From the NCBI GenBank assembly GCA_018902385.1, contig JABSSW010000025.1, positions 248,001-312,000 on the forward strand: 64,000 bases of DNA. Direction: 5' to 3'. This DNA comes from Physcia stellaris. Taxonomy: Eukaryota; Ascomycota; Lecanoromycetes; Caliciales; Physciaceae. This document shows positions 21,321-52,563 of this stretch, piece after piece. Position numbers and translations under genes: made by a program. Every line of letters begins with the position of its first letter. Position 1 is the stretch's first letter. The notes beneath the pieces were generated by a model. That model made no database searches, was not told where the DNA came from, and was given only the letters and a program-made list of their open reading frames with translations.

Positions 21321-21514
21321 TGTTAAACGTGATGTGTGAATTGATTGATTTAGGAACTATGAGCGACAGAGTGCCAATTTATGTACAGTAACTGCGAACC
21401 AGTTGTCTGACCACCACCCATTTAGTATGGGGTGGCGGCAAAACCCTTGCCAAAAGCCATGCCAAAATATTTGATCTAAATCCATACCACCTAATCTGAC
21501 CTTGTGCCATAACA
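21321..21514 (-). repeat. LTR of the Ty3/gypsy element (3' LTR in element orientation)
   Basis: 194 bp, colinear without gaps with 28560-28753. Confidence 0.96.
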
Positions 21515-27500: not shown

Positions 27501-28559
27501 TTATTTTCGCCTGCCATGTCTGGATTGGATGCGGAGATAGGTTCGATATTTTCTGTGTTTCGAGGGGTGGTGTTCAGCGGGGCTATGGTGCTGTTCCGCC
27601 GTTGAAAAAACGACGCCGACGAGGTGGCTTGAGATTTACGGCGTAGATCCTCCGAGGAATGGGCGTAGAAAGTATCAAGAGGGGTATCTGCAATCGTCGA
27701 TTTTAGGCCAAAAGTGAATGGCGTAGCTCGATCACTAATTCAGTCGAGGAATGGTTGACTGCTTCGATACGCTTCGGTGACGATCACGAAAGCTTTAAGG
27801 TTTTTGCGGAAGCGAGTTCTGTCGACGACTCACTCTGCTGAGTAGGCAATGTTTGCCGAGACTGAGTGACTAGTAATTGACAACGATGTTGATCTAAAAC
27901 AATTAATTACGATATTGTTCACAATAGTTTCTGCAAATGTATTGACAAAATAAACTGAGTCAATTGTATCGATGTAATCGAATAACTCAAACGCAATGCG
28001 AATGACTTGTGGTGTGAGAAAGCAGTCAGAATGATTTAAATGAAAATGATGTGTCGTACTGAAATCTGAAATAGAGTGATGATAAACAAAACAAAAAAAA
28101 AAGCGAGCTGAAATTCTCAAGGTAGTTGAGCAAGTTTTTGTTGTTGAGAAAACAGATGAAATCGTTGAACTGAAACTGCTCGAATCAGACAGGAATTCAA
28201 ATGTGAATTGACACCCAAATGCGTCGTCACTGAGCGATGACAATGCGAATTTTCACGAAAAATCGAGATGCTTTGAATATTTGAATGAAAGACCAGTCGC
28301 CTCTGCTGAAAATTGTAAAAAATTGAGAAAATCTGATTGAAGTCCTCACCTTCAACTGAGTGTCTGTTGCTGATGATTGACTTCGATCGATACGTCAGAT
28401 CGAAAAAACAGTAAAGCTTTCGACGACGGTGACAGCGACAACAATGATGAGTAGCTGACATTTTTAGAATCGTGTGCTATCTCGAAAACTGATACGTCAA
28501 GAGCAGTTGATGATGCCGACTTGTTTACGTACGATCATCGCTTGAATGATGCTATCAAT

Positions 28560-30852: not shown

Positions 30853-33723
30853 TCAATTCTCTTCCCTCCCAGACCCCTCTTGGAGCAGCTCGATCGCTCT
30901 ATCCGTCATGCAAGCCTGCAACGGCATTGGCGGGGTACTGAAGAAGTACGCCTTCGCATCCCACGTCAATGCCTCTACGCTGGCCGCATGCCCCGTCACA
31001 TAACCTCCCTGGTGCCCAAATGCATCATACCAGCTCCCTGCCACCATCACCCTTACCTTCTTTGCATTGCCAAAGGCCGAAAAGGTGTCGGTGAGGAATG
31101 AAACCCCATGACGGGATTCCATCGCGTCCAGGTAGCCCAGTTTGCGAGGGCCGATTTTGCCGAGGCCGTTGCGGTCGTCCAGGAGGATGGTGATAGAAGA
31201 GATGTTTTTCCTGGCCTGTGGCGTCTTGAATGCTGGGTGGCTGAACAGGGAAGCCAGGTCAAGGATTCCGCTTCCGTCTTTTTGCGCGGTCAGGAAGTAG
31301 AATGTTAGGTGCGTCGGTTTGCGCAGGTCTAGCATCTCCGGGATGGCCGAGACCGAATCATAGTAGTTGCGTACCACACGCGGGTTGGGCTTATCCATTG
31401 CTACGCCGGAGAGAACACCGTGAGGCGCGCTACTCGAGACGAATACGGTGTTTGTGGTGGTGGTAGAGGCAGTGGGAATGACAATCGCCGAGAGGGTGGA
31501 GCCAATTGTTACTTCGGCGTCGCCGCAGACCATTGCTGTCAAACGCCAGTCAGTCTTGAGAGCGAAAGTGGATACGGAAGAGAAAAAAAATGTAGAGGGG
31601 AAGTTGACGTACAGCGACAGAGACCTGACTGCTTGACGAGTGAAGGGTACAAGTTTGCCAGTCGTCGCTCCAAGTTGATGAAGGAATCGAATGAGCCGTA
31701 GAACCAGCGAGCAGAACATGGGCCAATGCCATATTTCTCCAGTCCATCGACACCAGCCTGGATCACCTGACTTGACCGGCCGACAATGCTATCACCATGT
31801 ATATCAGTGTCCTGGAGCGTCGAAATATATTCGAGAAGCTCTTCATCAATGGCATTACATTGCTGCTCGACGACTGCATCACACAAATCTTCTTTCAGGA
31901 GAAGCTTGTCGTCGAAGGCGGTAGCCTGAACGCCACGGACACCAATGGAAAGGCAAATGCTGATAGTCGTGTTGAGAAGCCGGTGGATGTCGGGCCAAGT
32001 GGTGGTTGCGAAAATGCAGAGTCGGACACGACATCCCCTGATATATGTTATTGCATTGGACAAGATTGGATCGTCAAGGAATTACTCACCACATCGGCGT
32101 TGCTGGTGGTACGCCACCAACTATGGCCATACCCTGCTTCATCGCTTCGCCGTGAAACAGAGCTACTTGACGCACCGTGCCTGATAAATTTAGTATCATA
32201 TTCAGACAAGCTCCATTAAGAATTCCGACTTACCGACTGGGAAACAGATGATGGCGGACCCGGTTGAGCTAAGGACCTTGCAGCCAGCCGCCTTAAGTGC
32301 CCTTGCTACGTAACCAGCTTTCTCATGCACGAGCCTCATACGGTGCTGGATCAACAGGGGTTTCCTTAGCAAGCCGAGAATGCGAAGTAACACAATCGTG
32401 GATAGCTTCTCGATCCCTTGAGTGGTCAGAACCTCACCTCGACGGTTAAGCTCAGCCGCAAAGGGACCATTGGCTAGAACAAAGCCACCGGTACATCCGA
32501 CAGATTTGGAGAACATGCAAGACATGACGTCGACTTCACTCAATGGACAGTAGTAGCCGGCGTCTTGCCAGTGGTTGAAAGATCCTCTACCGTTAGACCC
32601 AAGGGCCATGAAGGAATGCGCTTCGTCGACGAGAAGGCAGAATTTATAAACTTCTTTCAAAGCTAGGATTGCCGGACCAGGCGAAATGGACCCTTCCATA
32701 CTATAAAGGTCACCATGAGCATTGCCCCGGAAGTACAGGAACTAGGTTGATACTCACCTGTAGATACCTTCAATGGCTACACAAATGAAGGCAGAAGGAT
32801 CCTGCTCGCGGTACATACGAAGCTTGAACTCCAGATCGTTGAGATCGTTATGATCGAACTTGTGGATCTTTGCGCCCTTATTGTAGAAAGCTCCTGTGAA
32901 CATGGAATTGTGACAGTCTCGGTCCATCAAGAACACAAGATCACGGCCTTGGCTTCGAGCCACACCGGCTACGGTACCAAATGCTAAGATGTTGGTACTG
33001 AAACCTGAAGGCGCAGTGAAGGCGCTGTCGAAGCCCATGTAGCTCGCACATTGCAAGCGTACCTCCTCCTCGAGTGCGGCTGGGGGTGGGCAGAAAGGGA
33101 GCTGCCGAAGAGCGGCTTCGATCACGCGCTCGCTGCCAAACTCGAGGCGTGAAAATCCACCATAGTTGTTTGAAGCGCAATTTACGACTTCGGTTTTCTC
33201 GAAAGAGTCCAGATCCCCGACTTCTTCGTATTGTCGAGACGCCGAATCTGGAATTTTTCGAATAGTCATGCGGTTATGGGGGCCACTCGTAACAAGACGG
33301 GGATCTCTGCGGCCAACTGGAATATACTGCGACACTGCGTCAGCTTCTTGGAATATAAAAACAGTCAAAAGTACAGCTTACAAAGTAATGTGTCATGAAG
33401 TCAGTCTTCAGGAGAGGCACATATAACCTTCGCGACCTCACGTCCCGCCAAGCCTGGATGAGAATCACAAGCAGACTCCAATAGACGAACTTGAGTATTT
33501 CCAGATACGTAACCGGTGGCTCGACAGGCCTGACAAGATCAACGATCTTTTTCTTGGCTACCTGTGCTGCAACTTTTAGATCATCGACAGCATGGGCCAT
33601 TGACTCCGGTTTGTCGATTAAATCGTCATATGAAGGGGGTGTGGGCGGAGCATTGGCTGGGGCCTTTGATCCATGTTTGAGTCGAGTAAAGGCTGCGGTG
33701 GGTGGCAACAGAAGTCCGGACAT
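30853..33723 (-). CDS. Fused LCB2-LCB1 alpha-oxoamine synthase (serine palmitoyltransferase-like, Fum8-type)
   Basis: Six exons (33723-33382, 33326-32758, 32700-32234, 32180-32090, 32037-31613, 31535-30853) join in phase to 858 aa. The N-terminal part has a membrane helix (about residues 77-92, LKFVYWSLLVILIQAW). An LCB2-like PLP domain follows: NCASNNYGGFSR, AIEGIYSMEGSISPGPAI, the DEAHSFMALGSNGRG aspartate/histidine region, and the PLP-lysine motif CMFSKSVGCTGGF. It closes with MKQGMAIVGGVPPATPMW. A second module resembles the LCB1 subunit: KYGIGPCSARWFYGSFDSF, LERRLANLY, ITILLDDRNGLGKIG and AYFFSTPPMPLQ. It lacks a PLP lysine, as LCB1 does. Enzymes of this family condense an acyl chain with an amino acid, releasing CO2, to give a 3-keto sphingoid base, normally at the ER. 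Size and two-module layout resemble the fumonisin synthase Fum8 (about 840 aa as I recall). The exact fifth splice junction is the least certain. Confidence 0.87.
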
Positions 33724-34139
33724 GATGTTCGAAGTCTCAATGCCGGAAAAACTCTTGAAAGTAGTCGAGTCAGAAGAATCGATTTGGTAAAGAGTTTGGG
33801 AGTCTATGAATGGCGAAAGAAGACCCTCGGTGGAGGAAGTTGTTTTATAAACTCAGAGAAAAGTCTTTCGCTGACAAGGTTGAATGATAGCTTGATTATA
33901 TCAGCAGCTGAGCGAGGTGATGCGAAAGGATACCAAGAGCTAGGTAAGGACTATATAAAAGAACGATGCAAACAGAGATGGAAGCCCATTTATAAATACA
34001 ACAGCACAACGCTGACGGCACAACACCAACTTGATATCTCTATGAGGTCACGTTCGGCTTTTCCCTAACCCCCAGTTGCTGATTACGGCGTATGAGCTCG
34101 AGACGTGAGAGCCTCGGAATGAGCTCTGCTCCTCCAGGA
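33724..34139. promoter_or_regulatory. Promoter region of the oxoamine synthase
   Basis: 416 bases between the synthase start and the 3' end of the reductase gene transcribed in the same direction. No gene seen. Confidence 0.45.
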
Positions 34140-35245
34140 CTATGGACCAGACCCGGCATTACGAGTTTGACGCTCAAACATGAGTCTGAAAAAGGGCCAG
34201 ACAAGGGAGGCAACGAGGCCGACACACCATTCCAAGATCCCATTATTGGGAGGGCTGGGTCCTCGCATGTTGTTGAGCAACAACCATGTTTGATAGTCAG
34301 TAGTAATCAGGTAGTGATCCCTGCAGAGACCGGCAAATATAGACTTCGATACAGCCCCTGCTGTCATACCGTCGGTGGGATTGTCAGATCCTTCAATTTG
34401 CTTGGTCAGCGCTGGTTTCTGCTGCTGTTCCTCGTAAAATGAGTCCGTGAAGATGGTGCCTGGGAAGGAGCAGTGGACACGAATATCCTGGCGGTACATC
34501 AGGACCTCCTGACGAACAGTATCAGCCAGAGCACGCAACGCCGCCTTGGTGGGGGTGTAAGCAGCGTAGCCTGGGACGGCAACGAAGGCTGCCGTGGATG
34601 CCGTAAACACAATGTGACGTTGTTGATACTTGGTTTCAGGAGGCTCCTTCAGCCATCGGCGAAGAAGAGAATGAGCAATCAGGGCGGCCGAAAAGTAATT
34701 TTTCTGAAAACAGCTGTGCAGCTGAGTCGAAGTAAGATCGGCAAAGAATCCCAATTCTCCATTGGCTCCACCGGCCACACAAAAGAGCATTGAAGGAAGC
34801 GGTGAGAGATTGACAATCAAGGCCTCGACCTGTTTCGGATGAGCTATTGTTAGAGACTAGGACGACACAATGATTCATACCGCCGCCTGGTCGGTCAGAT
34901 CTACCGAGTGAGTTTGGATTTTCTGTTTGGAGTCGCGACGACGTGGCCAGAGCTCGTCATGTGTCTTGCGTAGGGCATCTCGCCCGCGAGCAACGAGGTG
35001 GACCGAGGCACCTGAAACGCATTGACCACGTTACATGGCTGTATGATGTCAAGATCATTCAGATCGTGGGGGCTTACCACGTGCGACGAGTTCCGAAGCG
35101 ACGGCCAACCCAAGTCCTTTGGATGCTCCAGCAACGATGGCTTCCTGTGACTCCTCTTGTCAGTTACTGGATCGACGCGGAGTCAGAAAGCCAGAAGCTT
35201 GCTCACCTGGCCAACCAGGTCATTCCAGAAGTCACTATTACCCAT
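34140..35245 (-). CDS. 3-ketodihydrosphingosine reductase (Tsc10/KDSR type; Fum13-like)
   Basis: Four exons (35245-35207, 35153-35078, 35011-34881, 34829-34140) join in phase to 311 aa. It is a short-chain dehydrogenase: the Rossmann motif AGASKGLGLAV lies near residue 20, FCVAGGANGELGFF corresponds to the family's NNAG-like region, and the catalytic Y-x-x-x-K is AAYTPTKAALRAL. The C-terminal part (SFPGTIFTDSFYEEQQQKPA, ITTDYQTWLL) and a hydrophobic tail helix (LEWCVGLVASLVWPFFRLMF) are characteristic of the Tsc10/KDSR branch rather than generic SDRs. The reaction is NADPH-dependent reduction of 3-ketosphinganine to sphinganine at the ER membrane. It lies directly upstream of the oxoamine synthase in the same orientation, the enzyme expected to act just before it. 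A paralogue is likely elsewhere in the genome for primary metabolism. Confidence 0.92.
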
Positions 35246-36119
35246 GGCTGTAGATGGGATGGATTGGAGCTATAGTTAGGATGGGTGGAATACGGAATGA
35301 AGGACTCTTGCTTATGAATTGAGGTATTCCTTGAGGTTTCACACACATAAAAGCAACTTGAAAAGAAAAACGTCTAGTAAGCTGACCTGCCACGTGCTTA
35401 TACTACACAGGTATGGCTGCGCCGCACGAGCCAATCCCGTGAAACTTCCGACGGAGAATTGATATGCGGTTCCTGCATGCGGCTCCTGCATCCCAACAGA
35501 CGCCCGAGAGTGCTAAGCAGTAATAGCAGGATTACTGTATACATGACTTGTCAAGGATTATGCTGTCAGCAACCGCATATTCCTATCTTGAACGAAGGCT
35601 TTTCGTAAATAAGCCTTCGGCAATCCCCTAATGCTGACGAAACACGCGATGACTGCATCCCGTAAGCTTTTCTGCCATTCGGGTAATGTCTGACTGCCAG
35701 CTGTGATGGTAACTGGTATATCATTCATGAACAGATTCGATTCCTTTGACCAAATATGGTGGTCATACGGTCATATTAAGAAGCTGCGCCGACTTTGTGC
35801 CCGTAGAACCGATTGATACTCTGCACACAGCCACTATCCCCCTTTTTTTCTCATCTTTCGCGCCGCTTTAAGAGCCATACGTGTCCATGTTTCGGATGAT
35901 TCAGCTAGCTGCTATCAAATCCTTAGCGGTACGGTATTTCCTCCGACATGGTAACATTTGTTGGAAACGAGGGAAGGGGAGAGATCTTCAGACTGTAGCG
36001 GCGTAGAGCGTGACTGCCTGTATTCTCTTTTATCCTTTTCATATTCCCTGCCTTCCAAACGAAAAAAAGGGCGCTCTTTCTCTCTCTCGTCCCAAATCCG
36101 CAATAGACAAACCACCACA
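35246..36119. promoter_or_regulatory. Divergent promoter between the reductase and the C4-hydroxylase
   Basis: 874 bases between the divergent starts at 35245 (minus) and 36120 (plus), consistent with co-regulation. No gene seen. A pyrimidine-rich leader with CT runs precedes the hydroxylase start. Confidence 0.5.
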
Positions 36120-37225
36120 ATGACTCCCAACACCACCATCCCAACGAACGACTTCCACAGCATGTCTCCCTCATGCACAGAGCGCCCAATGCAGCCCCTC
36201 CTCTTCAACGTCCCAGACAAATACACAATCGTCATCCTCCCCGTCGTCGCCTACTGGTCCCTCTCGCTCCTCTTCTTCGCCCTCGACGAAGGCGGCTACC
36301 TCTCCAAATACAAACTGCACACCCCCGCCGAGTTCCTGAAGCGCAACCGCGTCTCCATGCGGCACGTCGTGCAGGACGTGCTGATCCAGCATCTCTTCCA
36401 AACGCTCCTCGGCTCCCTCCTCGCGTGGTACGAACCCGACAGCGTGACCGGGTGCGAGAGCAGAGATGTTCTCGCGTGGGCGCTCTGGGTGCGGAAATCG
36501 GTGCAGCAGCTCCCATTCGCATTACCCCTTCAAATCAGTGACGCCCCAAGCGCATTCGAGCAGCTAGCCGCGCGCGCCCTCTACTGGCTCCTCATCCCCG
36601 CCACCCAGTACCTCCTCGCGATCTTCTTCGTCGACACCTGGCAGTACTTCATCCACCGCGCGATGCACACCTCGCCCTACCTATACCGCACCTTCCACGT
36701 GCGCCACCACCGCCTCTACGTCCCCTACGCCTTCGGCGCGCTCTACAACCACCCCCTCGAAGGCTTCCTCGAGGACACCGTCGGCTCGCTGCTGGCGTTT
36801 AAGTTTGCGCGATTGAGTGTGCGGCAGGGTATTTGGTTTTTTGTGGGCAGTACGCTTAAGACGGTGGATGATCATTCTGGGTTCCGGGTGCCGTGGGATC
36901 CGTTGCAGTGCTTGACGGATAATAATGCGTATTATCATGATATCCATCATCAGAGTTGGGGCATGAAGGTTGGTTATGTCCCTTTCCATTTTCCCCCAAA
37001 AGAGAAAAAAGAAACAGCGAGAAGAAAAGAAATAATGGAGTTATGAGAGTGTTGAAGAGAGAGAATTGCTGACGTAGGCGGGCACGATAGAGTAATTTCT
37101 CGCAGCCCTTCACATCCTTCTGGGACCGCCTTTTCGGCACCATGTGGACGGCCCCGGAGGCGGTTACGAATGAGAAGTATGAGAAGGGGAGGAAGGGCGC
37201 GGTGGTGGTTTATAAAGAGGAGTGA
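36120..37225 (+). CDS. Sphinganine C4-hydroxylase (SUR2 type, fatty-acid-hydroxylase superfamily)
   Basis: Exon 1 (36120-36968) and exon 2 (37091-37225), with a 122 nt intron, encode 327 aa. The ATG at 36120 follows a pyrimidine-rich leader. Transmembrane segments are visible near the N-terminus (YTIVILPVVAYWSLSLLFFA) and mid-protein (ALYWLLIPATQYLLAIFF). The three di-iron histidine boxes are present: HRAMH, HVRHH and HDIHH (in YYHDIHHQSWG). The segment joining the exons (SWGMK, then SNFSQPFTSFWDRLFGT) is typical of SUR2. The enzyme hydroxylates C4 of sphinganine to phytosphingosine in the ER. Choosing the acceptor at 37090 rather than the later CAG restores the conserved NFSQPF motif. It is adjacent to the ketoreductase across a shared promoter. 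Confidence 0.93.
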
Positions 37226-37229
37226 AGGA

Positions 37230-37390
37230 GCTGGGAGGGGAAGGGGGAGGGGGGGGGAATGTAGAAGGGCGGGAGGGGGCGGGGGCAATGGAGAAGGGCG
37301 GGAGGGGGAGGGGGAGAAGGAGAAGGACAGATCTTGGAAAAGAGAATGTCTGGGGTTTTTGGAGGGGGGGAGGGGGAGGAGGAGGGATGG
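37230..37390 (+). repeat. Purine/G-rich simple-sequence tract
   Basis: A G-rich purine tract of GGGAGGGGGAGG type, directly downstream of the hydroxylase stop. It could affect 3' processing. Open frames here on both strands are compositional artefacts. Confidence 0.8.
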
Positions 37391-38215
37391 AGGGAAGGCA
37401 TTGACTTTTGCTGCCTTTTTGCGGGATAAGCTAGATTGTAAGAATGTAGAATGTAAGAATATTGATAGTGACATACCTATCCTATACCCATTTCCTTCCA
37501 CAAACCTCTCGTATTTCTCCTTTTACTCCATCCTCCATTACCATCACAATAAAAACAAGAAGAGAGCGAACGTACTCGTACCTATCCCGTAGCCATTTAG
37601 CCTTAACAGAAGCCTTAGGGATGAATTTTCCGTTTGAGTAGCTTTATCAAGGTAACCCGTCGATGCCTATCCTCTTTTTTTTTTTTTTTCCTTTCGGGTT
37701 TTCTCCGTCTGAATACCTTCCATACTGCCTAGATGGAGGTGAACAAGTCCCCGGTACCGACCGCTTATGTAACTCTTCACATCATCCCCAGAGAATGGTG
37801 AAGTTTCAAGGTATTGTTTACTTTTCCCATCTAGATGCCCCTGTGACCGTCCTCTATTATTAACCCAGGGAGAGAGAGGTGTCAAGTAAAGGAATCTGAA
37901 AATGAACCGTCCGACATGTGCTTTCTGGGCTGCTCAATTCAACGCCTATTTTTCGCACATAGAGTGTTTTTTTTTTAAATTGTATCGGAACAGCGAACAT
38001 TGCAAATGACTTCGGCTAACCCAACGGTGCGAAAATGACAAAACCTCGGCGCTATGAAAATACAATCGCAATACTTTTATGCGAGCAGTCTAGTTACCAA
38101 CTTTCCAATCACTTTATCCGAATCTAGCCTCTAAGTCCTCATCTATTTTGCCGAACGTCATCTCATCACATGTCATGCGTCCGCCGACAGACCCTGCGAG
38201 TTTCGGCGGACTGTA
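37391..38215. other. Convergent intergenic region
   Basis: 3' flanks of the hydroxylase and the RTA1-like gene. No coding sequence seen. Contains poly-T runs near 37677 and 37967. Confidence 0.5.
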
Positions 38216-39194
38216 CTAGTCCGTCTCATTCAGTTCCATCTTGTCACTCTCCGAGCTCTTGGGCGCCGTTCTCAGTAGCCACCCTGGGTTCAGGATATTA
38301 AAGATCCCCACCGCGGCCACCATCAACGCTCCATCCAGCACGACGAAGTAAACCTGGTGCGTGATCAGGAACCCGCTCCACCCCTGCAAGAGCTCCACCG
38401 TGCGGTATACGCTTCGGGCATAGATCATCGCAACGCTGAAACAGGACGCCGCGACCAGGAGTTGCAGTTCGCGGGGCAGGACCTGGCGGCGGACACGTTG
38501 CAGGAAGACGAGGAGTAGGTATGTGAAGACGGTGATGGAGGCGAGCTGGAAGACTATCCCCGCGACCATGGTGTCGGTGCCCGGTTTGGTGTCGCCGTTT
38601 ACTTCGCTGGAAGCTTCCGAGGCGAGGCCGCCGCCGACGGCTTGGATGACGAGAGACAAGACGTCGCAGGTACAGAATATCCAAAGGTACATTTTGGGCT
38701 TGATGGGTGAAGAGGAAGGGCCCATGATTTGGATGAGGCGGCCGAGGATCACGTAGATGCCTGCTGTGAAGAACGTTGGGGCTGCACGGAGAGGAAATGT
38801 CAGCTTTCCTAAGACGACTAAGGGTTGAAAGGGTGCTGTTGCAACGCACCGATGATCAAGGTCGAAATCTGCATTAGGAAGGCATTGTTGTTATAGGGAC
38901 ATTTGGCGGACCAGGTCCTGCCTGCCCATCCGATGACTTCGGTCAGGGCACCAAGAACGAACAGCTTAATTGAATTAGCATAGTTGGAAGGACATTCCAA
39001 ATGTCTGTATAACGACGTACGAAACCCCACCATTGCCGCGTCCAAATGGACTGCGCGATGTGCACTAATCCAGAGAGACCAAAGAGGGTGCAGAAGATGA
39101 TGCCCGCCGAAAGCCACGGGGTGTAGCCATATGAGGTCTCATAGTCTGGACGGTAATCGTAACATCCGTTCTGGATCCACTGTGGAAGAGACAT
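38216..39194 (-). CDS. RTA1-like seven-helix membrane protein (Rsb1 family)
   Basis: Exons 39194-39021, 38964-38850 and 38781-38216 join to 284 aa. The start is taken at the ATG at 39194 (MSLPQWIQNGCYDYRP), where the protein aligns with family N-termini; an upstream in-frame ATG at 39215 exists. Family signatures are EVIGWAGRTWS, ISTLIIAPTFFTAGIYVILG, FCTCDVLSLVIQAVGGGLA and RSVYRTVEL, with seven hydrophobic segments and a charged cytosolic tail. RTA1-family proteins include yeast Rsb1, linked to release of sphingoid long-chain bases, and Rta1, linked to aminocholesterol resistance. Its place among sphingoid genes makes a long-chain-base exporter or protector a reasonable inference. Confidence 0.9.
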
Positions 39195-39967
39195 TGTTCG
39201 ACGCCTAGTGCTCAAAGCGAGAGGAATGGACTGAAATTTGTGATTGGCTTAGATGTGTGGAAATAAGTGAATGTTGATGTCAAAGCTTCAGGACGAACTG
39301 ATGAGAAGGCTCGAAGCTTTACTAATTTGAATCGAAAAGTCACACCGTGTTCACTGAGAAAATGGAGTTGAAGGAGTTGTCCAGCGTGCAAGCGAGAGCT
39401 GAGGACGGAGGGAAAGAGCGATGTGCTTGCTCGCAGCTTATCAAGCATCAGCTCAGCTAGCGGTATTGAAAGTAAGCGTTTAAAACAAGGTAATTTACTG
39501 TAAGACCGAGCTCCGAGTCACTGTGTCATGTCAGACTGGAAGGATGAGTTGGATGAGGCGGTCAGATTCAAGCTGTGTGCCAAACGTGTCAGCCCCCGAA
39601 GAGTGACTGTGCATGAGGCGCTGACGTCGTACAGTCGGACATCCTTCCTGAAACACTTCCCAGTGCTACACGGCGGAAACCCACGTGTGAGATGCAGGAT
39701 CCGTGTTGAATGATTTGAAATCTCCGACCGGAAAGTCCCTGCACCTCGTTGTTCTTTCTTCGGGATTAGGAGCCGCACTAGGTCTTCCATCATCTGACGA
39801 ATCGCTATGGCCTTGCTTCTTCGCCAGCTGTCGGAGCGCAATGGACTCGCTCGACTATCTCCATCTTACATCGGTGGCCGGTTAACGCTGCTTGTATCTT
39901 GCATTATCTCCACTGCACCGAGAACAGACCAAAACATCACTGAGAACCAGATCATACTGCACCAAAC
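39195..39967. promoter_or_regulatory. Divergent promoter between the RTA1-like and MFS genes
   Basis: 773 bases between divergent starts. No recognisable protein. Open frames on both strands lack coding character. Confidence 0.4.
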
Positions 39968-41743
39968 ATGTCCGCCATGCCAGACCGGAGACGGTCCATT
40001 CTGCCGCTTGACTCCAGACAGCGGAATTCCATCCTCGTGCTGGATCAACTGGGCAAGAAAAAGACATGGCGTTTCCACCTTGCTTTCCTCGCTCTTGCGG
40101 TCGTCGCATATGCGAGCGCCCTGGATGCCACCAGTCTATCCATTGCGTTACCTGTAAGCAATTCTATTCCATGCTTCGATGGCATCGCGCCTTGACTGAT
40201 GATATCAGGATGTTGTCAAGGAGCTTGGGGGCACATCGTTGCAGTCTTTTTGGGCTGGCATCTCATTTCTTCTCACAAGCGTCCTCTTCCAACCGATCCA
40301 TACCATATTCTCCGATATCTTCGGGAGAAAGCCGGTCTTGTATGTCGCCCTTCTCTTCTTTGGACTCGGAGCCATCGTGTTCGGGTCTGCCAAGAACATG
40401 ACTGTTTTGATCATCGGCCGCACCTTTCAAGGTATCGGTGGTGGGGGCTGGAAGCCTTGGTTGAGATCATCTTGACCGATATGACAACACTCAAGGAGCG
40501 CCCACTATGGGTGGGACTTCTGGGCTTCGTATGGGCGGCCGGATCGGTGTCAGGACCTCTTGTTGGTGGCGCCTTTTCGCAATATGTAAGTTGGCGGTGG
40601 ATAGCTTGGATTAATCTGCCATTGATTGCAGTGGCCATTGTCTTGATACCGCCTTTCCTGAAGCTCCAGACTCTGACACAACCGCTCAAAGCCAAGTTGA
40701 GAGCGGTGGACTGGCTAGGAATCTCTCTATTCCTGGCTGGTATGACCAGCTTTGTCCTTGGCATAACATGGGGCGGCAGTCTGTATTCCTGGAAATCTTG
40801 GAAGACCTTGCTGCCGCTCATAATTGGAATAATTCTTCTCATAGCCTTTGTTGCATGTGAAGGATTGACTACGAAAGAGCCGATGATCCCATACCGTTTA
40901 TTCCAGACCAGAACAGGCGCTGCTTCGCTTCTCGGCGCTTTTCTTCATGGCATAATCGTCTTCGGCGTTCTCTTCTATCTGCCAATATACTTCGAGGGTG
41001 TGATAGGCGATTCACCACTGAGAGCTGCGGTGGAAGCGCTGGGACTCGCACTTGCCGTCACGGCTTTTGCCATTATCGCTGCACTTGCCATCGATGTTGT
41101 TCGACGGTACGCGTGGAGTGTCTGGATGGGATGGATAACAACCGCTGTAGGAATGGGCTTGATGATTATGCTCAATACCACAACCGGGCAGTCCGCCAGA
41201 GTTGGCTACCAGATATTGGCCGGCGTTGGCTTAGGGATGCTGTATCCATCCCTTGGGATACCGCTGCAGGCTGCCGTAGACCTAAACGACAACGGACTCG
41301 CCATGGGAACCTTTGTTTTTGCACGACAAACAGGCGCTGTCATTGGTCTGGCGCTAGGTGCCGCCGTATTCAGCAATACATTCACCTCGTCTCTTCCCCA
41401 ATACTTACCGTCATCTCTCGAAACACTCCGTACCAACAATGCCGCTGTGAGCCTTATCTCGGAGCTCAGACATTTAAACCTTGATGCAGCAACGCTGAAG
41501 CCGATCCTAGATGCTTATAGTAAGGCGCTAGAATGGGTCTGGGTGGCAATGGTAGTGGTAGCAGGATTAGGCTTCGTTGCAAGCTTGGCGATCCGAGATA
41601 TTACACTAGAGAATGAGGAGAGAGGGAGACAGGCGTTCGTTGAGAGTGATGACTCGGACATCACACCGCTGGTCTTGCAGCAACTGAGCAGGATCGAGAC
41701 CGGCCCTGAGAGAGACCAAGACTGCCACCGGGATCCACGGTAG
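39968..41743 (+). CDS. DHA2-type MFS transporter, with one frameshift in a G run
   Basis: Exon 1 (39968-40153) and exon 2 (40209-41743), with a 55 nt intron, would give about 573 aa with 14 predicted helices. Family motifs: LDATSLSIALPDVVKELGGT, DIFGRKP (motif A), GRTFQGIGGGG, and GSVSGPLVGGAF (motif C). A one-base shift is needed at the G run 40443-40447 to go from the RTFQGIGGGG frame to the EALVEIILTDMTTLKERP frame. Everything else is intact, so this is either a recent loss of function or a homopolymer base-call error. DHA2 transporters export drugs and secondary metabolites at the plasma membrane, which fits export of a cluster product. Confidence 0.85.
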
Positions 41744-44138
41744 CGACGAACGGCGAATCATCCTACGCTGGTCGTTCCGAATGCCCTAGGGACGTCGGTG
41801 ACACGATTATCGAGAGGAAGTTGAGGTGTGGGATTGCGCTGGCTGAGGGATTAAATTATGGCTAACGAGGTCCTATGGGTGGGGTGCGCCCTCCACTGCA
41901 TGCACGGTAAGCCACCTCGTGACTGCATGATCTTTCAATCATTCATGCATTCAGGAGCTCCATGACTGACTCACTGAAGCAGAACGGCACAATAGGATTT
42001 GTTGGGCACTTGACTTTCTCCGCTTCAAACATCTCATTAGTGCCTGTGCTGCCAAAGATTCAGATACACACGAACAGGCCAGCCGCCGAACAGACGCAAG
42101 TCACGCGTATACACCCCGTGGCATATCAAGAGCTAGTCTCAAGCACCGAGGGAATCTGAACGACTATATCGATAGCTTCGTTGGCTGAATGGCCCACAGA
42201 ATTTTGGCAGGTGCCTGACGTTGTCCTCACAGTGGGCATGTTCGTCAAGGACTTTGAGGCTAAGTACTATGCCAGTGCCTCGGCGCCGAAATCTGACATG
42301 CGATCGGGGCGGCACCCTCTATAGAAGACTCGCATTGCTGGAAGATCGTCTGAATGGAGGACCTCTTGCCCTATTCTCGTCCCCCGCCCAACACCACAAC
42401 TAGGATAGGGAGTTCTCAATCTGTTATTAAGCCGCATAGCGATTTTCAGCGTCAATAATAGGGTTCATTGCCCTTCGACATCGTATAGAGTGAAAGATCC
42501 ATCCTTAACCATTGTAGAAGCTCATCTCTTGAGAAATGCTTAGGTAGCGCCCTCTCATCCGTATCCTCGTCCCGTGCTGATGGCGGCTGCAGATGTTATG
42601 CCTATTTGCTTGGGCGATATCCTCCAGCCTAATCGCAGTTGTTGGTTGGCATGCAGCCTATTGTCCGCTTGAAACTCAAGCTCTTCTTGCACTTTCTATT
42701 TAGACAAGCTCAAGATCCAGCCGAGTCTGTAAAGCGTCTGTATTTTGAGATCAAAGAACGACATGGACCGAGCGGCTTCAAAAGCGGTACCGGGTGTAAT
42801 CGACTGTGAAGGAAGCTTTGCCCGTCATAGTACGAACTACATTGGCCGAAATGTATCGATGAGCTTAACTCGCTTGCTAACAGTATGATTGACAGACAAT
42901 AATGAGGCCTGTGTGATAATCAGCTCAGGCGCTTGTCGCAAGTTTGACTCTCGCTAATTCAAGGCTATCAGTAGACAGCTTACTATCACTACACTTCCTT
43001 CTCCTAATATTCATCCCTAGCCTTCTCCAAGGCTTATAGGCAGGCGAGGGTACAGGGCCGGCGATACAGCACTCAAGTCCAGGGCTTCCATTGTCTTGTC
43101 TCGAGCCCCATATCGCTCGTCGGGCAAGTTAACTTTCCTGCTCTTTTCGCCGTTATGTATCCCGACCCGTGTAGTTGCCCGGCAGAGCTCACGTGGAGGA
43201 AGCTCCAAGTCTCAAATCTCCAGTCGTCCAGCGTTTCCAGGACTGCAAGCTTCATCTTGCACAGCTAGAGAGATGGGCAGTCAATGGTCGTGTCTTAAGC
43301 AACCCACGGTTGGCTCTGCTTGTATCGCCGGATCCTGTTGAGTCGAGGACTCCTATTCGCTCGAGGCGTATCCAAATTGCGCGTCATATCTTGACCCTGC
43401 TCTTGGAGGCCTTGGGCCGGGATGGGCGGGAGGACACGTAAGTAAGCGACTGGGTAGTGAAAATGGTCTGGATAGCACATCAAGGTCTGCGCGCTCTAAG
43501 GTTCTTGGAGGTTATGAAGCATAGTATTGATGATTTGATAATTATTCCATTGTTATACTCTCGTAGGAGTGCAATTACGGGAGGAATTATTTTGACCCCG
43601 GGTGCGCATATCGGCTATTACGCTTGGTGCCGAGGCGCCCGTGGACCTACCTTAAAAGAACACAGGCACGTGATATCTGAACGCAATCAAAGGTCTTAGT
43701 AGTACTTCGCGGGTAAAGTATTCTTCAGCTTCTGTGACCGCTCTCAGAAGTCGGTGTTACCAGAACGACCGTAAAGCATATGCAATGGAAAAGCTATTGG
43801 GAAGATTGCCTGGAGTACTCCGTGTTTCCGGAGCAACGAAGATAATCAGAGAGGGTTCTGTGAGCTTTAATCTATTGGTCACTGCTCGGAAGGCTTGAGC
43901 TATTTGAGCTCCGGGGACTTGATATCGGAAAACTTGGGCTCGAGCTCGGAGAACCTGAGCTCGTGAGCTTCGTGGATTTCGCGAGTTCAGGATCTCAGCT
44001 CCACGTTCCCACTTATGGATTGCACTAGTGCTTACTGAACTACAAACCATTCCTCTACCAACGGCAACGATCTCCAAGCTTGCAGAATACTCAGAAACAT
44101 CGTAGAAACTGGTGCTCTTACCCATTCGGAAAACCACA
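41744..44138. other. Gene-poor stretch with coding-like fragments
   Basis: 2.4 kb between the MFS and ceramidase genes. Coding-like but unassignable pieces on the plus strand occur around 42180-42320 (contains VVLTVGMFVKDFEAKYY) and 43175-43440 (contains QIARHILTLLLEALGRDGRE). Both run into stops. They may be remnants of a lost cluster gene. The interval also includes the ceramidase promoter, with several GAGCTC motifs at 43890-43990. Confidence 0.35.
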
Positions 44139-45291
44139 ATGTTTCCGTGGTCCTTACCATATCGCGACGAGCAGCGGCCGTACTACTGGGGAACGCCCAC
44201 ATCAGCCCAAAAGTAAGCCTCAAGATGCCATTGCAACAGAGAGCGGGACCTCAAACCTTAACTTCTCTCTATACTAACAAAAATGCCTCCAGTTTCTGCG
44301 AAGAGGATTATATCATACACCCCCAGGTAGCCGAATTCATAAACACGTTAAGCAATGTGCCGTACAGTCAGTCGCCTGCAACCCTCAACATCCAAACCCC
44401 CGACGTAATTTACTCTTTTGAGTCCAAGCTGAGCTCAGTTCTCAGTCCTCTTCGCTCTCCACGGCCTCCACCGATCGCGCCAACGGGGTGACCCTTGGCA
44501 GCGCACTCTTCCCTACCTGGGCCTGCTCAGCGTCGGTATCGGCTCTTCTCTCTTCCACGCCTCCTTGCAACTCTATCCCCAACTCCGTCAGTCTCCCTCT
44601 TCCCCATCATGAACCCTAGCACAACCTCTGATCGTATCTCTTTCTTCCGGTATCAGTGGATTCACTATCCATGCTGTACGCCACCGCCTTCGTCATGCAT
44701 CAACTCATAACCTGCAATCACCCGTCTGAAGAAGCATCCCAGCGCTCCGCGATGCTTGCCGTGGCGGTGCTGCTCTTCTCTGTGATCCATTGCGTGCTCA
44801 ATGATCTCAATCTGCATTCTTTGGTCTTCGCCTCCATGATCGCCTATATCGCCGTGAACACCTCGAAAATGATAACGAGCGTCCAAGACCGTGATTGGCA
44901 GAGGCAGGCGCGGAGGTGGGTAAAGTTTGGTTCCGGTAGGTTTTCCCAGTCGAGATCATCTATTCATCTCCCCAGCATCTCAATAAAACTAATGTGATTC
45001 CTCATCGTTGTCTTAAAGGCTGTTGTGCACTCGGCTACGCATTATGGCTCATCGACACCTTCTTCTGCCCCACATTACGGAGCTGGCGCAGGCAAATGGG
45101 CCTACCTTGGGGGTTCCTGCTCGAATTACACGGCTGGTGAGTTTTCGGGGGTTGTAGTATCCGCATACGGAGGTTGACGATCGCTTAGGTGGCACTTCCT
45201 GACCGGCGTTGGGGCATACACATTCATAGTCCTTGTTCAAGTCTTGACTGCGAGGCGGACGGAGGAGGGACTGTATGCCAAGGCTAAGTAG
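44139..45291 (+). CDS. Alkaline ceramidase (Ypc1/Ydc1-like)
   Basis: Six short exons (44139-44212, 44293-44366, 44446-44586, 44657-44935, 45019-45136, 45189-45291) join in phase to 262 aa. The N-terminus reads YYWGTPTSAQNFCEEDY, the hallmark ceramidase start, followed by VAEFINTLSNVPYILFALHG. LSVGIGSSLFHASLQLYPQL then leads into LLDSLSMLYATAFV, corresponding to the catalytic His and the D-E/S-L-P/S-M segment. The C-terminal LWLIDTFFC and ELHGWWHFLTGVGAY contain the remaining zinc-binding histidines. The enzyme hydrolyses (phyto)ceramide to a free sphingoid base plus fatty acid in the ER/Golgi membrane. The intron density hides the gene from simple reading-frame scans. Within a sphingoid cluster it could feed free bases into the pathway or undo ceramide formation from a toxic product. 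Confidence 0.92.
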
Positions 45292-46060
45292 CTTTGTACG
45301 CTTTGGTCGTTCCTAGCATAATATTATGGCGGCTGCTGCACTGACATCCCCCATTTTACTCATCTGACACCCTCTACTCGAGCGGGGCGTGATTTCGATT
45401 CATCCGCTATTGATCTCCTTGCCTTCACGTTCGTCTCTATTCTCTTCCCACCGACTATCTGAAGAAATCCACAGACTCGGCGACAATTAACTATTGAGTA
45501 TATGAACAAAAAAATTTACACCATCAAAACTATGGCACAAAAAGGCGTACACATCAGATTCCATGCCATCTCAGGCTGAAATCCTATCGTACAGTACGTA
45601 AATCGAAATCTCGCCGAAAGAACTTGCACGTTTCCCATCCAAAATCAATGATTTTCTCAAGTAGACTATCCTTTGCTGAGATTTTCGTCCATTTTTGACG
45701 TAGAATAGGAAATCTTTTCGGCTGATCGGAATGTTGCTGGTGAGTATATCCATTCGAGCGAGGATGGATATCAGAATAGTGAGAAGGGGTGTCGGTGTAG
45801 TAAAAGCCAATATTTAAACACTCATTGCATATCCTCGCTACCAGAGCACGGGGTGATTGAAGTCCTCTGTGGCCTGCTCTATCAAATAACATCCCCGGGG
45901 AGTGGCTCCGAAAGAGATAGTACTGATCACCAGTCCTGGGTTCAGCGTTTTGTAATCTGCTGATCGTCGTCGGGACTTGCGTGGCTTTCCTTCTATCGCG
46001 ATGTTGTTGGCGTTTGTGATTCATCTCGTGCTGTTCCTCGGTCTTCCAAGATTAGCTCAT
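45292..46060. other. Intergenic region
   Basis: No recognised gene. A minus-strand frame at 45584-46024 (146 codons, Arg/His-rich) has no domain and no clear coding bias. Confidence 0.4.
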
Positions 46061-46265
46061 GGTCTGGTATGGTGCTATCTTGCCTCCGATGCATTGCCAT
46101 CGATATACCCAATAATATGAAACCACGCTTACCCGTGTTTGGCACAAAGCATATGAAGACAACATCATCTTCTGATTTCGCCCGAAGCCGGATCTGTCGG
46201 TGTATCCTATATAAGAACCACTTATTACCAGACCATGGGTTAGTATTCAGATATGCTCATTATTA
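46061..46265 (+). repeat. Dispersed ~200 bp repeat, copy 5
   Basis: Contains GGTCTGGTATGGTGCTATCT, GGCACAAAGCATATGAAGAC, ACATCATCTTCTGATTTCG and a right end CTTATTACCAGACCATGGGT. This is one of the best-preserved copies, together with copy 3. Confidence 0.75.
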
Positions 46266-46549
46266 TTAGGTACAGGGATCAGATCACCAGAACCCTAGAC
46301 CTATGCGGAAACCGTCACTGTGGTTTTCATTGAGATGATTGACTTTCTTTGAGGTTCTCTCTCGGGTATAGCTGTTAAAAAAAACATCAAAAAGGTGAGG
46401 CGGGAGGGATAGATAAGTAAGAACAGCATCAATTGGTATCACTAATTCTAAACGATCCAAAACACTCTATGGTAAAACTCCCATCGCAATGCAACAAAAT
46501 ATATACAGCCCCCCTCACCCCCTAGTTCAAGTCCCCCAAGAACCATACT
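46266..46549. other. 3' flank of the second RTA1-like gene
   Basis: No gene seen. Confidence 0.5.
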
Positions 46550-47506
46550 CTATCGCCTCTCAGGCTGATCCATAGCCGTATACACGCCGCCAGGCGCCTC
46601 GACATCCTCCGTCTTCTCACTCGCGTACAACCCGCCCGCCTTCTTATCAGCCTTGTAAGTAGTCATCGGCTTGAAGAAGAGGCCAGGATGGAAGACCGTC
46701 AGGCACAGCGAAGCAACAGTGACCATCACGCCATCCAGCACAATGAACTCAGCCTCATCCTGCATGATAGGATTCGCCCAGCCGCCGGCCATCTCGGCGA
46801 TACGGAAGACGCAGCGGGTGAAGATGACGAGGAACGAGAGGACGATGGACGCGGCGAAGAGCTTGAAGTCGCGCGAGGCGAGCAGGTTGACGGTCGCTTG
46901 CGTGAAGCTGTTGCGGCTGCTGTAGGCCCTGTAGACGTAGTCCGCGACGAGGATCCCGAAGACGAGCAGCGTGGCGACTTGCCATGAGATACCGGCCATC
47001 ATGAGGTTGTTTCCGATATCCTGAGTGGCCGTGGTGTTGGCCGTGGCGGCGATGCCTCCGCCGGCGCCTTGGAGAATGAGGGAGAGGAGATCGCAGAGGA
47101 TGAAGATCCAGGTGTAGAATTTGGCGCGTATCCGGGAGTAGTCGCGGCCGACGGTCAAGACGAGGTATTTCAGGGTCAGGTAGACGCCGGCGGTGATGAA
47201 GGCGGGAGCGATGATGAGACAGCAGATTTGGATGTTGAACCCCGTGTCATCGAATGGATTGTTGTGTAGCATGATGCGGCCGACGTATCCCAGGGTTTCG
47301 GCAAAACATCCGACTCCCACGGCGATCATGTAGGTCCATGTCTTGTACTTGATGCCTAGGAAGATGTTCGCAATACAGCAGATACCGAATATGGCGGCGA
47401 AGAAGGCGTTAGCGCCGAGGTTGGGATAATAGCCGTAAACGGAGTCTTCGAGGCGGCACCCGATGATGTTCGGGTCCACTTTTGTGCAAATTGGTCCATC
47501 AGACAT
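46550..47506 (-). CDS. RTA1-like seven-helix membrane protein, second copy
   Basis: A single uninterrupted frame of 318 aa. Family motifs: AETLGYVGRIM, NIQICCLIIAPAFITAGVYL, WIFILCDLLSLILQGAGGGI, RCVFRIAEMAGG and FIVLDGVMV. It has seven predicted helices and a charged C-terminal tail (EKTEDVEAPGG). Unlike the paralogue at 38216-39194 it has no introns and is clearly divergent in sequence, so the pair is not a recent tandem duplication. A role in lipid or long-chain-base efflux is inferred from family and neighbourhood. Confidence 0.92.
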   Translation of the reverse strand: MSDGPICTKVDPNIIGCRLEDSVYGYYPNLGANAFFAAIFGICCIANIFLGIKYKTWTYMIAVGVGCFAETLGYVGRIMLHNNPFDDTGFNIQICCLIIAPAFITAGVYLTLKYLVLTVGRDYSRIRAKFYTWIFILCDLLSLILQGAGGGIAATANTTATQDIGNNLMMAGISWQVATLLVFGILVADYVYRAYSSRNSFTQATVNLLASRDFKLFAASIVLSFLVIFTRCVFRIAEMAGGWANPIMQDEAEFIVLDGVMVTVASLCLTVFHPGLFFKPMTTYKADKKAGGLYASEKTEDVEAPGGVYTAMDQPERR

Positions 47507-49005: not shown

Positions 49006-51381
49006 ATGGTCTACCCGGGAAAACCAAGCTCGGGATGTCAGATCTGTCGGACTAGAAAGATCAAGGTGAGCCAACGAGAACGTCGCTTCGCAAGCTAGCT
49101 GCTGTCCATCGAGATCTGCTGCGAGAGAACTTCGGCTGAGATTACTCATTCTGTGCAGTGTGACGAAGCAAGGCCTGCATGTTCTCATTGCCTCAAGTCC
49201 AAGCGGACATGTCCTGGCTACACAGCGCAGTTCGACTTGATTTTGCGTGATCAGACCCGGAGTACTCGACGAAGAGTTCAACGGCAACAGAATCAGCTGG
49301 CCAAACCAACAATTCCAGAGGAAGACGGACTCTCGAGGCTAGATGCTGTCCAGGAAGCATTCATGACCTGGAGTGCGGCAAACCTATTGTCGACCTCTCC
49401 TCTCCTGCTTGGGCCTGATCCATCTAACATAGAGGACCTTGCTATATGCAGGTTCTTTACTAATTATGTTCTCCTCCCTCGCCATCACGAGGCCTTCCGA
49501 GGCTTTCTGGACGCCCTTCCTCCTTTATTCAACAGAGCTCCCAACGGATCAGTATTGTCTCTAGCCACTTCGGCAGTTGCTCTAGCCATCATTGGCGGAA
49601 ATCCTTCCCATCCACGAGAGGCCATACTCGCACAAAAGAGATTAGGAAAAGCCCTAACCATGGCTCATGAGGCTGTCGCGGACCCAGTAGACTCTCTCAA
49701 AGACGAAACTCTTATGGCGGTCCTGGTGGGTTATCTCCGCGCGTTCTGTTATTTACAGCTTTTTCCTGTAGCTGTGCGACGCGTCTTGCAATCAATGCCC
49801 AAGGTATCGTAGGATGAATAATGCTGACTCCGCAATCACAACAGATCTTGGGTCTGCACGAGGTGAGCAAGCTTGTTCAAATAACTCTCTCGATCTTATG
49901 GCGGTCTTCGCTCGCAACTTATCCCAACTTATCTCAACATTGCTTCTGCCACCCCAGTAGCTTGAGGCGAAGTAGACTTAACCAAAGTCATGCCTTATCC
50001 GAGCAATTGAACTATCTGACAACGATTTCAAAAGATTTATGTCTCCTGGCCGAGGCCTTATGTGCTCATATGACCCAAACAGATTTCAGTCTTACATAAC
50101 TTGGAACTTGACATGCATTTAGCAGTCATTCCTTGTCGAGAGGCTGCTGAGGATAGACAATTTTCCTAAACTGCGGAAGCGGATTCCTTGTTGTATACAT
50201 TGCTAATACGAATAATAGCGTCTTACTGCCGGTGCTGCAGGACCTTCAATGGCCGTCGCTCACGATGCTGGAGCTCTTGCTCTACTCAAGCATAGAGGAA
50301 GACAGATCAATACCCATTCAGATATTGCTATCCTTCTACTTCAGGCAGTCAACACTCGTATCGTAAGTCAGAAGCAGGTGGATGGTCGCCTTCAACTTAG
50401 CTTATCCGAATAGGTCGATAACGCCTTCGATACTTTGATGGAATCGAGAAATAATTTAGGCGAATGCCTTGAGATGCTAGTAGACGTACCACAGGACACC
50501 TCAAGCCGCTTGACACTCATACATGCAGAATCGGCTTATCTACGGAGAGACGCGGAACAGCTACTCAGGGCTGAAGCTTCTAAGAAGGATCTTTTCGAGT
50601 TGCTTAGCCGGGCTACGCAGCTGGACCAAAAGCTTGCTTCTTGGGCCCTTTCAGTTCCTGACGAGTGGGAGTTCGTTCCCGCGGCTGAGTTCGAGATACC
50701 AAAATCAGTCCCAACCGAGGACTTAATGTATGGGACCCGGGTCGACGTGTACTCAGATTTGTTCGTCGCTGGCATTTGGAATTCCTACCGTGCAACTCGG
50801 ATCAGAATCCTCTTGATTATCTGCGATTGCATATGTGCATTACCACAGCCACCGACTGGTTTACTCGAGGTAGGTCTCTCCAGTATATCCTTACAGGAAT
50901 CGATCTTCAATCCCTTCTGTTCACCACTACCGGCGTTATTACACAATCTACAAAACCGTTCACAGCTATGTGTAGCTCGTGAACCGTGCACTCTCCAGAA
51001 TGTGTAGATACTGACTTGGATTATTCACATCAGGGCCGCAGAGATCTTGCGAGGGTTACAATGCAGAAGCTTGCGGACGATATCTGCGGTTCTGTACCCT
51101 TCTACCTGGGAACTAAAATACGACCAGGGACCGATGACAAGCCGGATGTGGAATATCCTTACACCACCACGAAAGCGACCAAAGCTTTTCGCCGAGGCGC
51201 AGCTGGATCTGGAGGATACAATTTAGTAGAACCTTACCACGCACCGCTGGGCAGTGTCTTGGCAGTACAGACGCTTCGGCCGGGGCAAAAGGAATGGGTC
51301 TTTGGACAACTTGCAAGGATTGCTCGCTTATACGCCTTGAATTGGAGTGCTACAGAGAAGCTGACAGGGCGACCCCAATAG
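49006..51381 (+). CDS. Zn2Cys6 transcription factor with an 18 nt microexon
   Basis: Six exons (49006-49065, 49159-49803, 49845-49862, 50219-50362, 50414-50869, 51034-51381), all joined in phase 0, encode 556 aa. The binuclear zinc cluster starts at residue 11: CQICRTRKIKCDEARPACSHC, split here in the description after CDEARPAC, with SHCLKSKRTC completing the six cysteines. The first intron interrupts the cluster directly after IK, a conserved position in this subfamily. Downstream helical repeats (AHDAGALALLKHRGRQ) match the fungal-specific transcription factor II type region. Exon 3 encodes only ILGLHE and fits the usual family continuation into RLTAGAAG. Intron 3 is unusually long (356 nt). 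It lies at the edge of the sphingoid cluster and convergent with the dehydratase gene; either could be its target. Confidence 0.88.
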
Positions 51382-51456
51382 AGAGCAGGCTCCAACTATC
51401 CCTCTTTGGATTTGCAAGGTATATGCTAGCTAAATTATAAATTTCCGACGCAACAC

Positions 51457-52563
51457 TCACTCTTCTGCCGATTTGTCTAACAAGTCGTTATGGGAGATCA
51501 TCGCTTTCTTGGTGTATCCTGGCATATCATCCCATTCTTGGCTCGAACCATCTGGTCCTCCGTCAAAGACCTCCATGGAAAACCATCCGCGGAATCCTGT
51601 CCTCAAAACAGCTTTCGTCACATCAACGACTGGCAGGTAACCGCCATTGAAGGGCACCGGCCGCAGGCACGAGCTCCATCTGCCCCTTGGCCTGAGACCG
51701 CTCTTGTCGGGTTTCGGATCGAGTGGCTTCTTCGGTTTGTACGCATCGGATATTTGGAGGATATATATCTTCTCCGCAGGGATGGTCTTACTCAAATTCT
51801 CGAGGCTGGCCTGAAACCTCTTCTCCAATACTGCTTTGTTCTCCACGTTTTCGATCAGGCCAGACTTTGTCGTCGGATCAGCCCACTCCCCTCCAGCGGT
51901 CTGGAAAGTGTCGAGACAAAGGCCGATGTTTGGTCGATCGACTTTCTGCACGAGAGCCCAGACATCTTTCCAATCTGGCGCATGCGTGGACCAGCACCAA
52001 TTTTCGTACGCAAGCCGATAGTCGTGCTTAGCTAGAATGTCGCAAAGCTCTCGAAGATCCGAGGCAAGCGCGTCGGGTGAGGTGTTGATGTTTGGGGTGT
52101 CCGTTGATCCAACCTAGAAATAAGTGGGGTCAGTTAGTGAGAGAAATATTCTACGAGCGATCGTCCAACAGCATACTTGGAGCATGTCGCATTCCAAGGA
52201 CTTCATGATGGTTATCCAACCCTTGGCTCGCCTGAACGCGTCTTTACGCTCTTCCGAATCTGCTGGCCACCCCTCGAAGTTGCTAAACGGCTGCAGCATG
52301 ACAACTTTCAGATTATGTTTCTCGCACCATTTCCTGACTACTTTGGCGGCATCACTCAATGAAGTCCAATCGTGATCGTCAACTTCCCTATCGTGGTACT
52401 TGCACGCCCAATTGAGGAGATCCGGGAAGCCGAGCTCGATGCCTTGGAAGCCGGCATTGGCGATGGCCTCAAGCTTCTCACGCAGCGATTGCTGGGTGGT
52501 TCCGACGGAGACGGTGGCATAGCATGTAGGGATTGAAGCGAAGGAGGATTTGGTGAGAGACAT
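51457..52563 (-). CDS. 3-dehydroshikimate dehydratase-like TIM-barrel protein (QA-4/QutC type)
   Basis: Exon 1 (52563-52177) and exon 2 (52113-51457), with a 63 nt phase-0 intron, encode 347 aa, close to the roughly 350-360 aa of fungal 3-dehydroshikimate dehydratases. It belongs to the xylose-isomerase-like AP-endonuclease-2 fold: KLEAIANAGFQGIELGFPDL, VVMLQPFSNFEGWP, YRLAYENWCWSTHAPDWKDV, NIGLCLDTFQTAGGEW and GWFSMEVFDGG contain the expected Glu, Asp, His and Glu metal ligands. The quinate-pathway enzyme converts 3-dehydroshikimate to protocatechuate in the cytosol. No other quinate genes are in the window, so a different sugar or aromatic substrate is possible. It ends 75 bases from the end of the convergent Zn2Cys6 gene. 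Confidence 0.85.

Follow-up and report, generated by a model that had tools for sequence, protein, structure and literature searches.

A putative sphingoid-base gene cluster in Physcia stellaris without a polyketide synthase on its contig

Introduction

The gene clusters known to make sphinganine analogues are based on a polyketide synthase (PKS), as described in PMC12821873 and PMC7376913. The fumonisin (FUM) clusters, described in three classes (PMC12821873), and the AAL toxin (ALT) cluster combine the PKS with a synthase of the fused LCB2-LCB1 type and a KDSR-type reductase, the role of Fum13. The SAM1-SAM5 clusters, which include the sphingofungin and AOD clusters, contain an oxoamine synthase of the single-protein type, a PKS and often a short-chain reductase (PMC7376913). 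Here, we analyse a stretch of 64,000 bases (the window) from the lichen fungus Physcia stellaris, located at positions 248,001 to 312,000 of contig C25 (G000:C25:248001-312000). Between positions 30853 and 47506 of the window, a fused synthase, a reductase and a hydroxylase of sphingoid-base metabolism lie next to each other and close to a ceramidase and membrane protein genes. From the sequence we think it probable that these genes form a dedicated sphingoid-base cluster independent of polyketides, with an ordered synthase-reductase-hydroxylase unit as its core and a free 4-hydroxylated base as its product.

The Physcia locus has the fused synthase in common with the FUM and ALT clusters (43-52% identity to matches of the FUM/ALT clade) and likewise the KDSR-type reductase. 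Unlike these clusters it contains a SUR2-type hydroxylase and a ceramidase, its contig is free of PKS matches, and its synthase falls outside the FUM/ALT clade. Out of 11 genes shared by FUM clusters (PMC12821873), only the FUM8 and FUM13 types were recognised in a Pfam scan of 20 frames and models, in which the FUM genes themselves did not serve as queries. The oxoamine synthase, and often the short-chain reductase, is shared with the SAM1-SAM5 clusters as well, but the Physcia synthase is fused and has no PKS match beside it. The housekeeping pathway (LCB1/LCB2, TSC10, SUR2, YPC1, RSB1) comprises the same types of reaction; its genes, however, lie on separate contigs, whereas the set described here is clustered and uses a fused synthase. 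In the human pathogen Coccidioides immitis, CIMG_01207-01209 are the same three core gene types in the same order, with 57% identity for the synthase and 54% for the reductase.

We did not find a PKS-less sphingoid cluster described in the open-licence literature, including the available parts of PMC12821873, PMC7376913, PMC7513301, PMC3401177, PMC3693894 and PMC11796371. A term search of the main text of PMC12821873 returned no Coccidioides, Teloschistes, Lecanoromycetes, SUR2 or ceramidase, and a search of the open-licence literature by locus tag and name yielded no paper linking CIMG_01209 with the neighbouring synthase and reductase. In the screen for SAM clusters, a synthase from outside Fusarium counted if a PKS lay no more than five genes away (PMC7376913), so that a cluster type free of one would be missed.

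Results

The analysed assembly comprises 43.97 Mb in 147 contigs and may be a filtered version of the published P. stellaris draft, which was obtained from Nanopore and Illumina reads and has 46.57 Mb in 184 scaffolds (PMC7513301). In spliced models, whose GT-AG introns span 51-122 bases, six of the seven genes between 30853 and 47506 encode a protein without interruption. The fused alpha-oxoamine synthase of Fum8 type (30853..33723, minus strand, six exons, Pfam Aminotran_1_2) is one chain of 858 amino acids, within the length of about 800-870 amino acids taken for Fum8-type enzymes, with an LCB2-like domain followed by an LCB1-like domain. It keeps the pyridoxal phosphate lysine K369 in the SKSV motif of the first domain as well as DEAH at 329, and its identity to 23 named homologues, including two shorter models, is 43-85%. 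The adjoining 3-ketodihydrosphingosine reductase (34140..35245, minus strand, four exons, 308 amino acids, Pfam adh_short) carries GASKGLG, the cofactor motif of short-chain dehydrogenases/reductases, and YTPTK (YxxxK). Its closest solved relative is TSC10 (8jat_A, E 2e-24; the next one 9e-11), so it is of the KDSR/TSC10 type and predicted to reduce 3-ketosphinganine. The SUR2-type sphingoid C4-hydroxylase (36120..37225, plus strand, two exons, 327 amino acids, Pfam FA_hydroxylase) has all three histidine boxes, HxxxH, HxxHH and HxxHH, and diverges from the reductase over a gap of 874 bases. A "sphingosine hydroxylase" of Physcia stellaris (P0156) is 98% identical to this model, and 100% over 318 tree columns; it is without five residues at the splice site.

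A search of the whole genome for ketosynthase (KS) domains gave 57 matches, all of them outside C25 and many consisting of exon pieces. The absence of a visible PKS that a preliminary description had reported for the 64-kb window thus extends to all 602,947 bases of the contig.

The same description had made its proposal depend on whether separate copies of these genes exist elsewhere in the genome, which proved to be the case. The genome search located LCB2 (C65:74894-77026) and another ceramidase (C13:502753-503711), while LCB1 (C3:222016-222865) was recognised by eye from the YGVGPCGPPGFYGT motif. The housekeeping SUR2 (C20:51314-52342) matches the cluster hydroxylase in two parts, with 63% (cluster residues 146-319) and 42% identity, and two KDSR-type genes (C5:384674 and C26:403467) each share 38% identity with the cluster reductase. 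Because these separate genes exist elsewhere, the cluster genes are paralogues, forming a clustered second set besides the housekeeping copies. With three KDSR-type, two SUR2-type and two ceramidase copies in 44 Mb, the chance that one of each would fall randomly within 14.5 kb of the synthase is about 3e-9, a figure computed post hoc and to be taken as a guide only.

The phylogenetic trees of the three core enzymes are midpoint-rooted and have several long-branch rows. The SUR2 tree, made by a quick method, had 46 rows (44 chosen from the best 120 of 2797 matches, the query and the genome's own copy). In it the window gene fell into a clade of 21 rows together with Physcia, Xanthoria, Usnochroma, Candelina, Coccidioides posadasii, Emydomyces and 14 metagenome rows; the other 25 rows make up a second clade, to which the own copy on C20 and a second copy of Usnochroma belong. 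All six hydroxylases with contig linkage (see below) are in the clade of the window gene. In this tree the cluster hydroxylase is separated from housekeeping SUR2 as part of a paralogue clade. In the KDSR tree (quick method; 39 rows: 36 from the best 120 of 164 matches, the query and two own copies) the window reductase grouped with lichen relatives, and the own copies on C5 and C26 were far off, forming a clade of five rows together with Lepraria, Alectoria and Nemania. The synthase tree, made by a careful method from 27 of 35 matches and the query, placed the window enzyme in a 13-row group of lichen fungi, Coccidioides, Xylogone, Aspergillus and two metagenome proteins. The FUM/ALT enzymes formed a separate clade of ten rows with a support of 100/99, starred by the tree tool, with the query outside. 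An Aspergillus filifer protein named fum8 (P0010) is also outside the FUM/ALT clade, for which reason the name seems loose; it may mislead toxin surveys.

Linkage of the core genes in other fungi was inferred from equal lengths of the contigs carrying the matches and from locus-tag numbers rather than from gene context. We compared the best 120 of 164 reductase matches, the best 120 of 2797 hydroxylase matches and 35 synthase matches, 33 of them with a contig size; because every row represents a 90% cluster, the name of another strain may conceal a partner gene. The nearest synthase relatives are from the lichen fungi Teloschistes (85% identity), Heterodermia (79%, over 37% of the query), Candelaria and Candelina (67% each), followed by Coccidioides immitis (57%) and then some aspergilli. 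For ten of the 33 synthases a reductase, among the best 120 of 164, is apparently on the same contig: in Candelaria, Candelina, Coccidioides, Aspergillus spectabilis, Thelocarpon impressellum, A. oleicola, Xylogone, A. sclerotiicarbonarius, Xylographa and one metagenome contig. In half of these the two tags are consecutive (M1812_006202/006203, M1836_006047/006048, CIMG_01207/01208, M1832_004676/004677 and MMC11_008504/008505), and Candelaria, Thelocarpon and Xylographa are among the fungi with neighbouring tags. A shared contig says little for Xylogone, where it is 9.1 Mb long, and for A. sclerotiicarbonarius, where it is 1.6 Mb long and the synthase belongs to the FUM clade. Hydroxylase and reductase apparently share a contig in at least six cases (Candelina, Xanthoria aureola, Emydomyces and three metagenome contigs), with adjacent tags in X. 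aureola (LQ349_004208/004209) and as weak evidence in Emydomyces, where the contig is 9.6 Mb long. Candelina has all three core genes on one contig. In Coccidioides, the number following those of the synthase and the reductase is CIMG_01209, named sphingosine hydroxylase (PMC3401177); judging by the shared name, it is probably the C. posadasii sphingosine hydroxylase of our tree (P0178). By tag numbers, the order synthase-reductase-hydroxylase is kept in Coccidioides (CIMG_01207/01208/01209). The core genes are thus linked in relatives too, a point on which the original cluster proposal depended.

The published rule for substrate choice concerns residue 580 of Fum8, which is alanine in enzymes using alanine and valine in those using glycine (PMC12821873, PMC7376913). 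In Fusarium Fum8 (P0015) this residue is the alanine within SSARW, and its equivalent in the window synthase is A599 in CSARW. Of the 28 synthase rows, three could not be read at this motif; the other 25 have alanine in 20 cases, valine in four (ALT4, Bipolaris, Cylindrodendrum and F. oxysporum) and proline in one (Xylographa copy 1). Eleven members of the 13-row group have alanine, the other two being unreadable, and the own LCB1 has proline. By this rule alanine would be the substrate and the resulting base would be without the C1 hydroxyl (1-deoxy). As the rule was made for alanine versus glycine and not for serine, a 1-deoxy base is a possible product, and serine use is still allowed. A modified phytosphingosine from ordinary acyl-CoA, as first envisaged for the locus, may be the product, but the active-site signature leans towards alanine over serine, which would give a 1-deoxy base instead. 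A cysteine at what we take to be the position of C133 in SPTLC1 was also weighed as an indication of serine use but rejected, since a row of the FUM clade from A. niger (P0013) has the same cysteine and A. niger uses alanine (PMC12821873). Two distinct fused synthases (P0016, P0017) are present in Xylographa trunciseda, one of them with proline at the substrate-selecting position.

Expression of the Coccidioides hydroxylase CIMG_01209 is 17-fold higher in the parasitic phase when averaged over two species; the gene is among the top 15 and was grouped with cell-wall structure by the authors (PMC3401177). CIMG_01207 and CIMG_01208 are not among the genes of the top-15 table in the same paper.

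The core is followed by an RTA1-family gene (a; 38216..39194, minus strand, three exons, 284 amino acids), a drug/H+ type transporter gene of the major facilitator superfamily (MFS; 39968..41743, plus strand, Pfam MFS_1 and TRI12), the alkaline ceramidase (44139..45291, plus strand, six exons, 262 amino acids) and a second RTA1-family gene (b; 46550..47506, minus strand, one exon, 318 amino acids). Gene models and Pfam agree with the types first assigned to the row of neighbours, and the RTA1 a and MFS genes form a second divergent pair with a gap of 773 bases. The ceramidase matches PF05875 (Pfam E 9e-72), and its alignment with 6g7o keeps Ser, His, Asp and HxxxH, which we take to be the catalytic and zinc site of ACER3. 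Both membrane proteins have the RTA1 domain (Pfam); export of long-chain bases, as by Rsb1, may be their function. The genome has at least 12 RTA1 loci, and the two with the highest scores are both in the window, RTA1 b scoring top. Between the MFS gene and the ceramidase (41744-44138, 2.4 kb) there are short frames only and no convincing gene.

To the right, open frames spanning 49099..51381 (plus strand) resemble a Zn2Cys6 regulator, with a Pfam match below cut-off; its membership in the cluster is uncertain. It adjoins a xylose-isomerase-type TIM barrel in two frames on the minus strand (the two together at 49099-52575), which it may serve instead of the cluster. A further Zn2Cys6 regulator is encoded by a 560-codon open frame at 12969-14648 (plus strand). 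Directly to the left of the cluster, at 20195-28476, frames resembling gag, reverse transcriptase and integrase of an LTR retroelement were seen by eye, mostly on the minus strand, in AT-rich DNA (GC 35-47% per 2 kb).

Discussion

In the pathway that we propose, the fused synthase would make a 3-keto base by condensing alanine or serine with an acyl thioester, which is most likely a fatty acyl-CoA of the ordinary kind. The KDSR-type enzyme would reduce the 3-keto group and the SUR2-type enzyme would add a 4-hydroxyl, giving phytosphingosine or a 1-deoxyphytosphingosine-like amino alcohol. The ceramidase might keep or set the base free, recycle it or act in reverse, and the RTA1 and MFS proteins might move it across membranes; these two steps are the weakest of the proposal. 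Product, substrates, order of reactions and accessory roles are all deduced from the gene content.

Several observations weigh against this proposal. For 23 of the 33 synthases, including those of Teloschistes and Heterodermia, there is no same-contig reductase among the best 120 of 164, and most of the reductase relatives listed, many of them from Aspergillus, come without a listed synthase. The 21-row hydroxylase clade holds no Aspergillus row, and in Candelaria and Thelocarpon the sole hydroxylases among the matches listed are of the housekeeping clade; the full three-gene unit is therefore seen in few fungi. Support for the 13-row synthase group (93/95) is slightly below the value starred by the tree tool. 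The MFS gene, whose family assignment stands, has an interrupted frame in this assembly: its two parts, which were searched separately, fall into different frames, with the change near 40440, which may be an error of a Nanopore-based assembly or real decay. Co-regulation, suggested earlier from the gene arrangement, found little echo upstream: no word of nine or ten bases is common to three of the five upstream regions, three words of eight bases are (without a chance control), and CGG-N-CCG sites are scattered. Finally, many KS matches lie on other contigs, and a PKS encoded there could supply the chain.

How far the cluster reaches is a separate question. The ceramidase, both RTA1 genes, the MFS gene and the regulator may be unrelated neighbours of a three-gene unit, which would be compatible with our explanation of the core. 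We consider this less likely than not. Linkage elsewhere was looked for and seen for the three core genes only, the regulator adjoins the TIM barrel, RTA1 genes form a large family and 2.4 kb without clear genes separate the MFS gene from the ceramidase; on the other hand, the cluster ceramidase is a second genome copy besides the gene on C13, and both of the best-scoring RTA1 loci, out of at least 12, are here.

The unit might instead boost or alter the supply of phytoceramide in stress or in a developmental phase, its product ending in ordinary membrane sphingolipids. The three core steps are indeed steps of normal sphingolipid synthesis, and the induction of the Coccidioides hydroxylase, grouped with cell-wall structure (PMC3401177), would fit. 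This seems unlikely to us since the synthase is of Fum8 type with an alanine-type signature, against proline in the own LCB1, and the adjoining ceramidase and transporter genes point to a free base and not to ceramide. About as unlikely is a split pathway yielding an ordinary sphinganine-analogue metabolite, in which the synthase, related to Fum8 and ALT4 that take a polyketide chain, would offload the polyketide of a PKS encoded on a different contig, just as Fum8 does for Fum1: all 57 KS matches are on other contigs and the published draft has 20 type I PKSs (PMC7513301), but no KS match falls on the 602,947 bases of the contig with the synthase, and the core genes occur together in distant fungi, where an adjoining PKS may be present.

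We therefore favor a dedicated sphingoid-base cluster that works without a polyketide. The fungi with the core genes belong to what we take to be Lecanoromycetes, Candelariomycetes and Eurotiomycetes. A bolder version, put forward tentatively and with less conviction, would be an ancient PKS-free cluster common to at least three fungal classes. With a synthase lineage that is sister to the one for fumonisin, it would make a free 1-deoxy, 4-hydroxylated base from alanine and ordinary acyl-CoA. It would serve lichen fungi for symbiosis or defence, and Coccidioides during the parasitic phase.

If our proposal is right, the Fum8 enzyme lineage exists beyond the PKS-based toxin clusters, and lichen fungi would gain a candidate lipid product. 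It would also offer a genetic handle on a hydroxylase already known for its strong induction when Coccidioides is in the parasitic phase.

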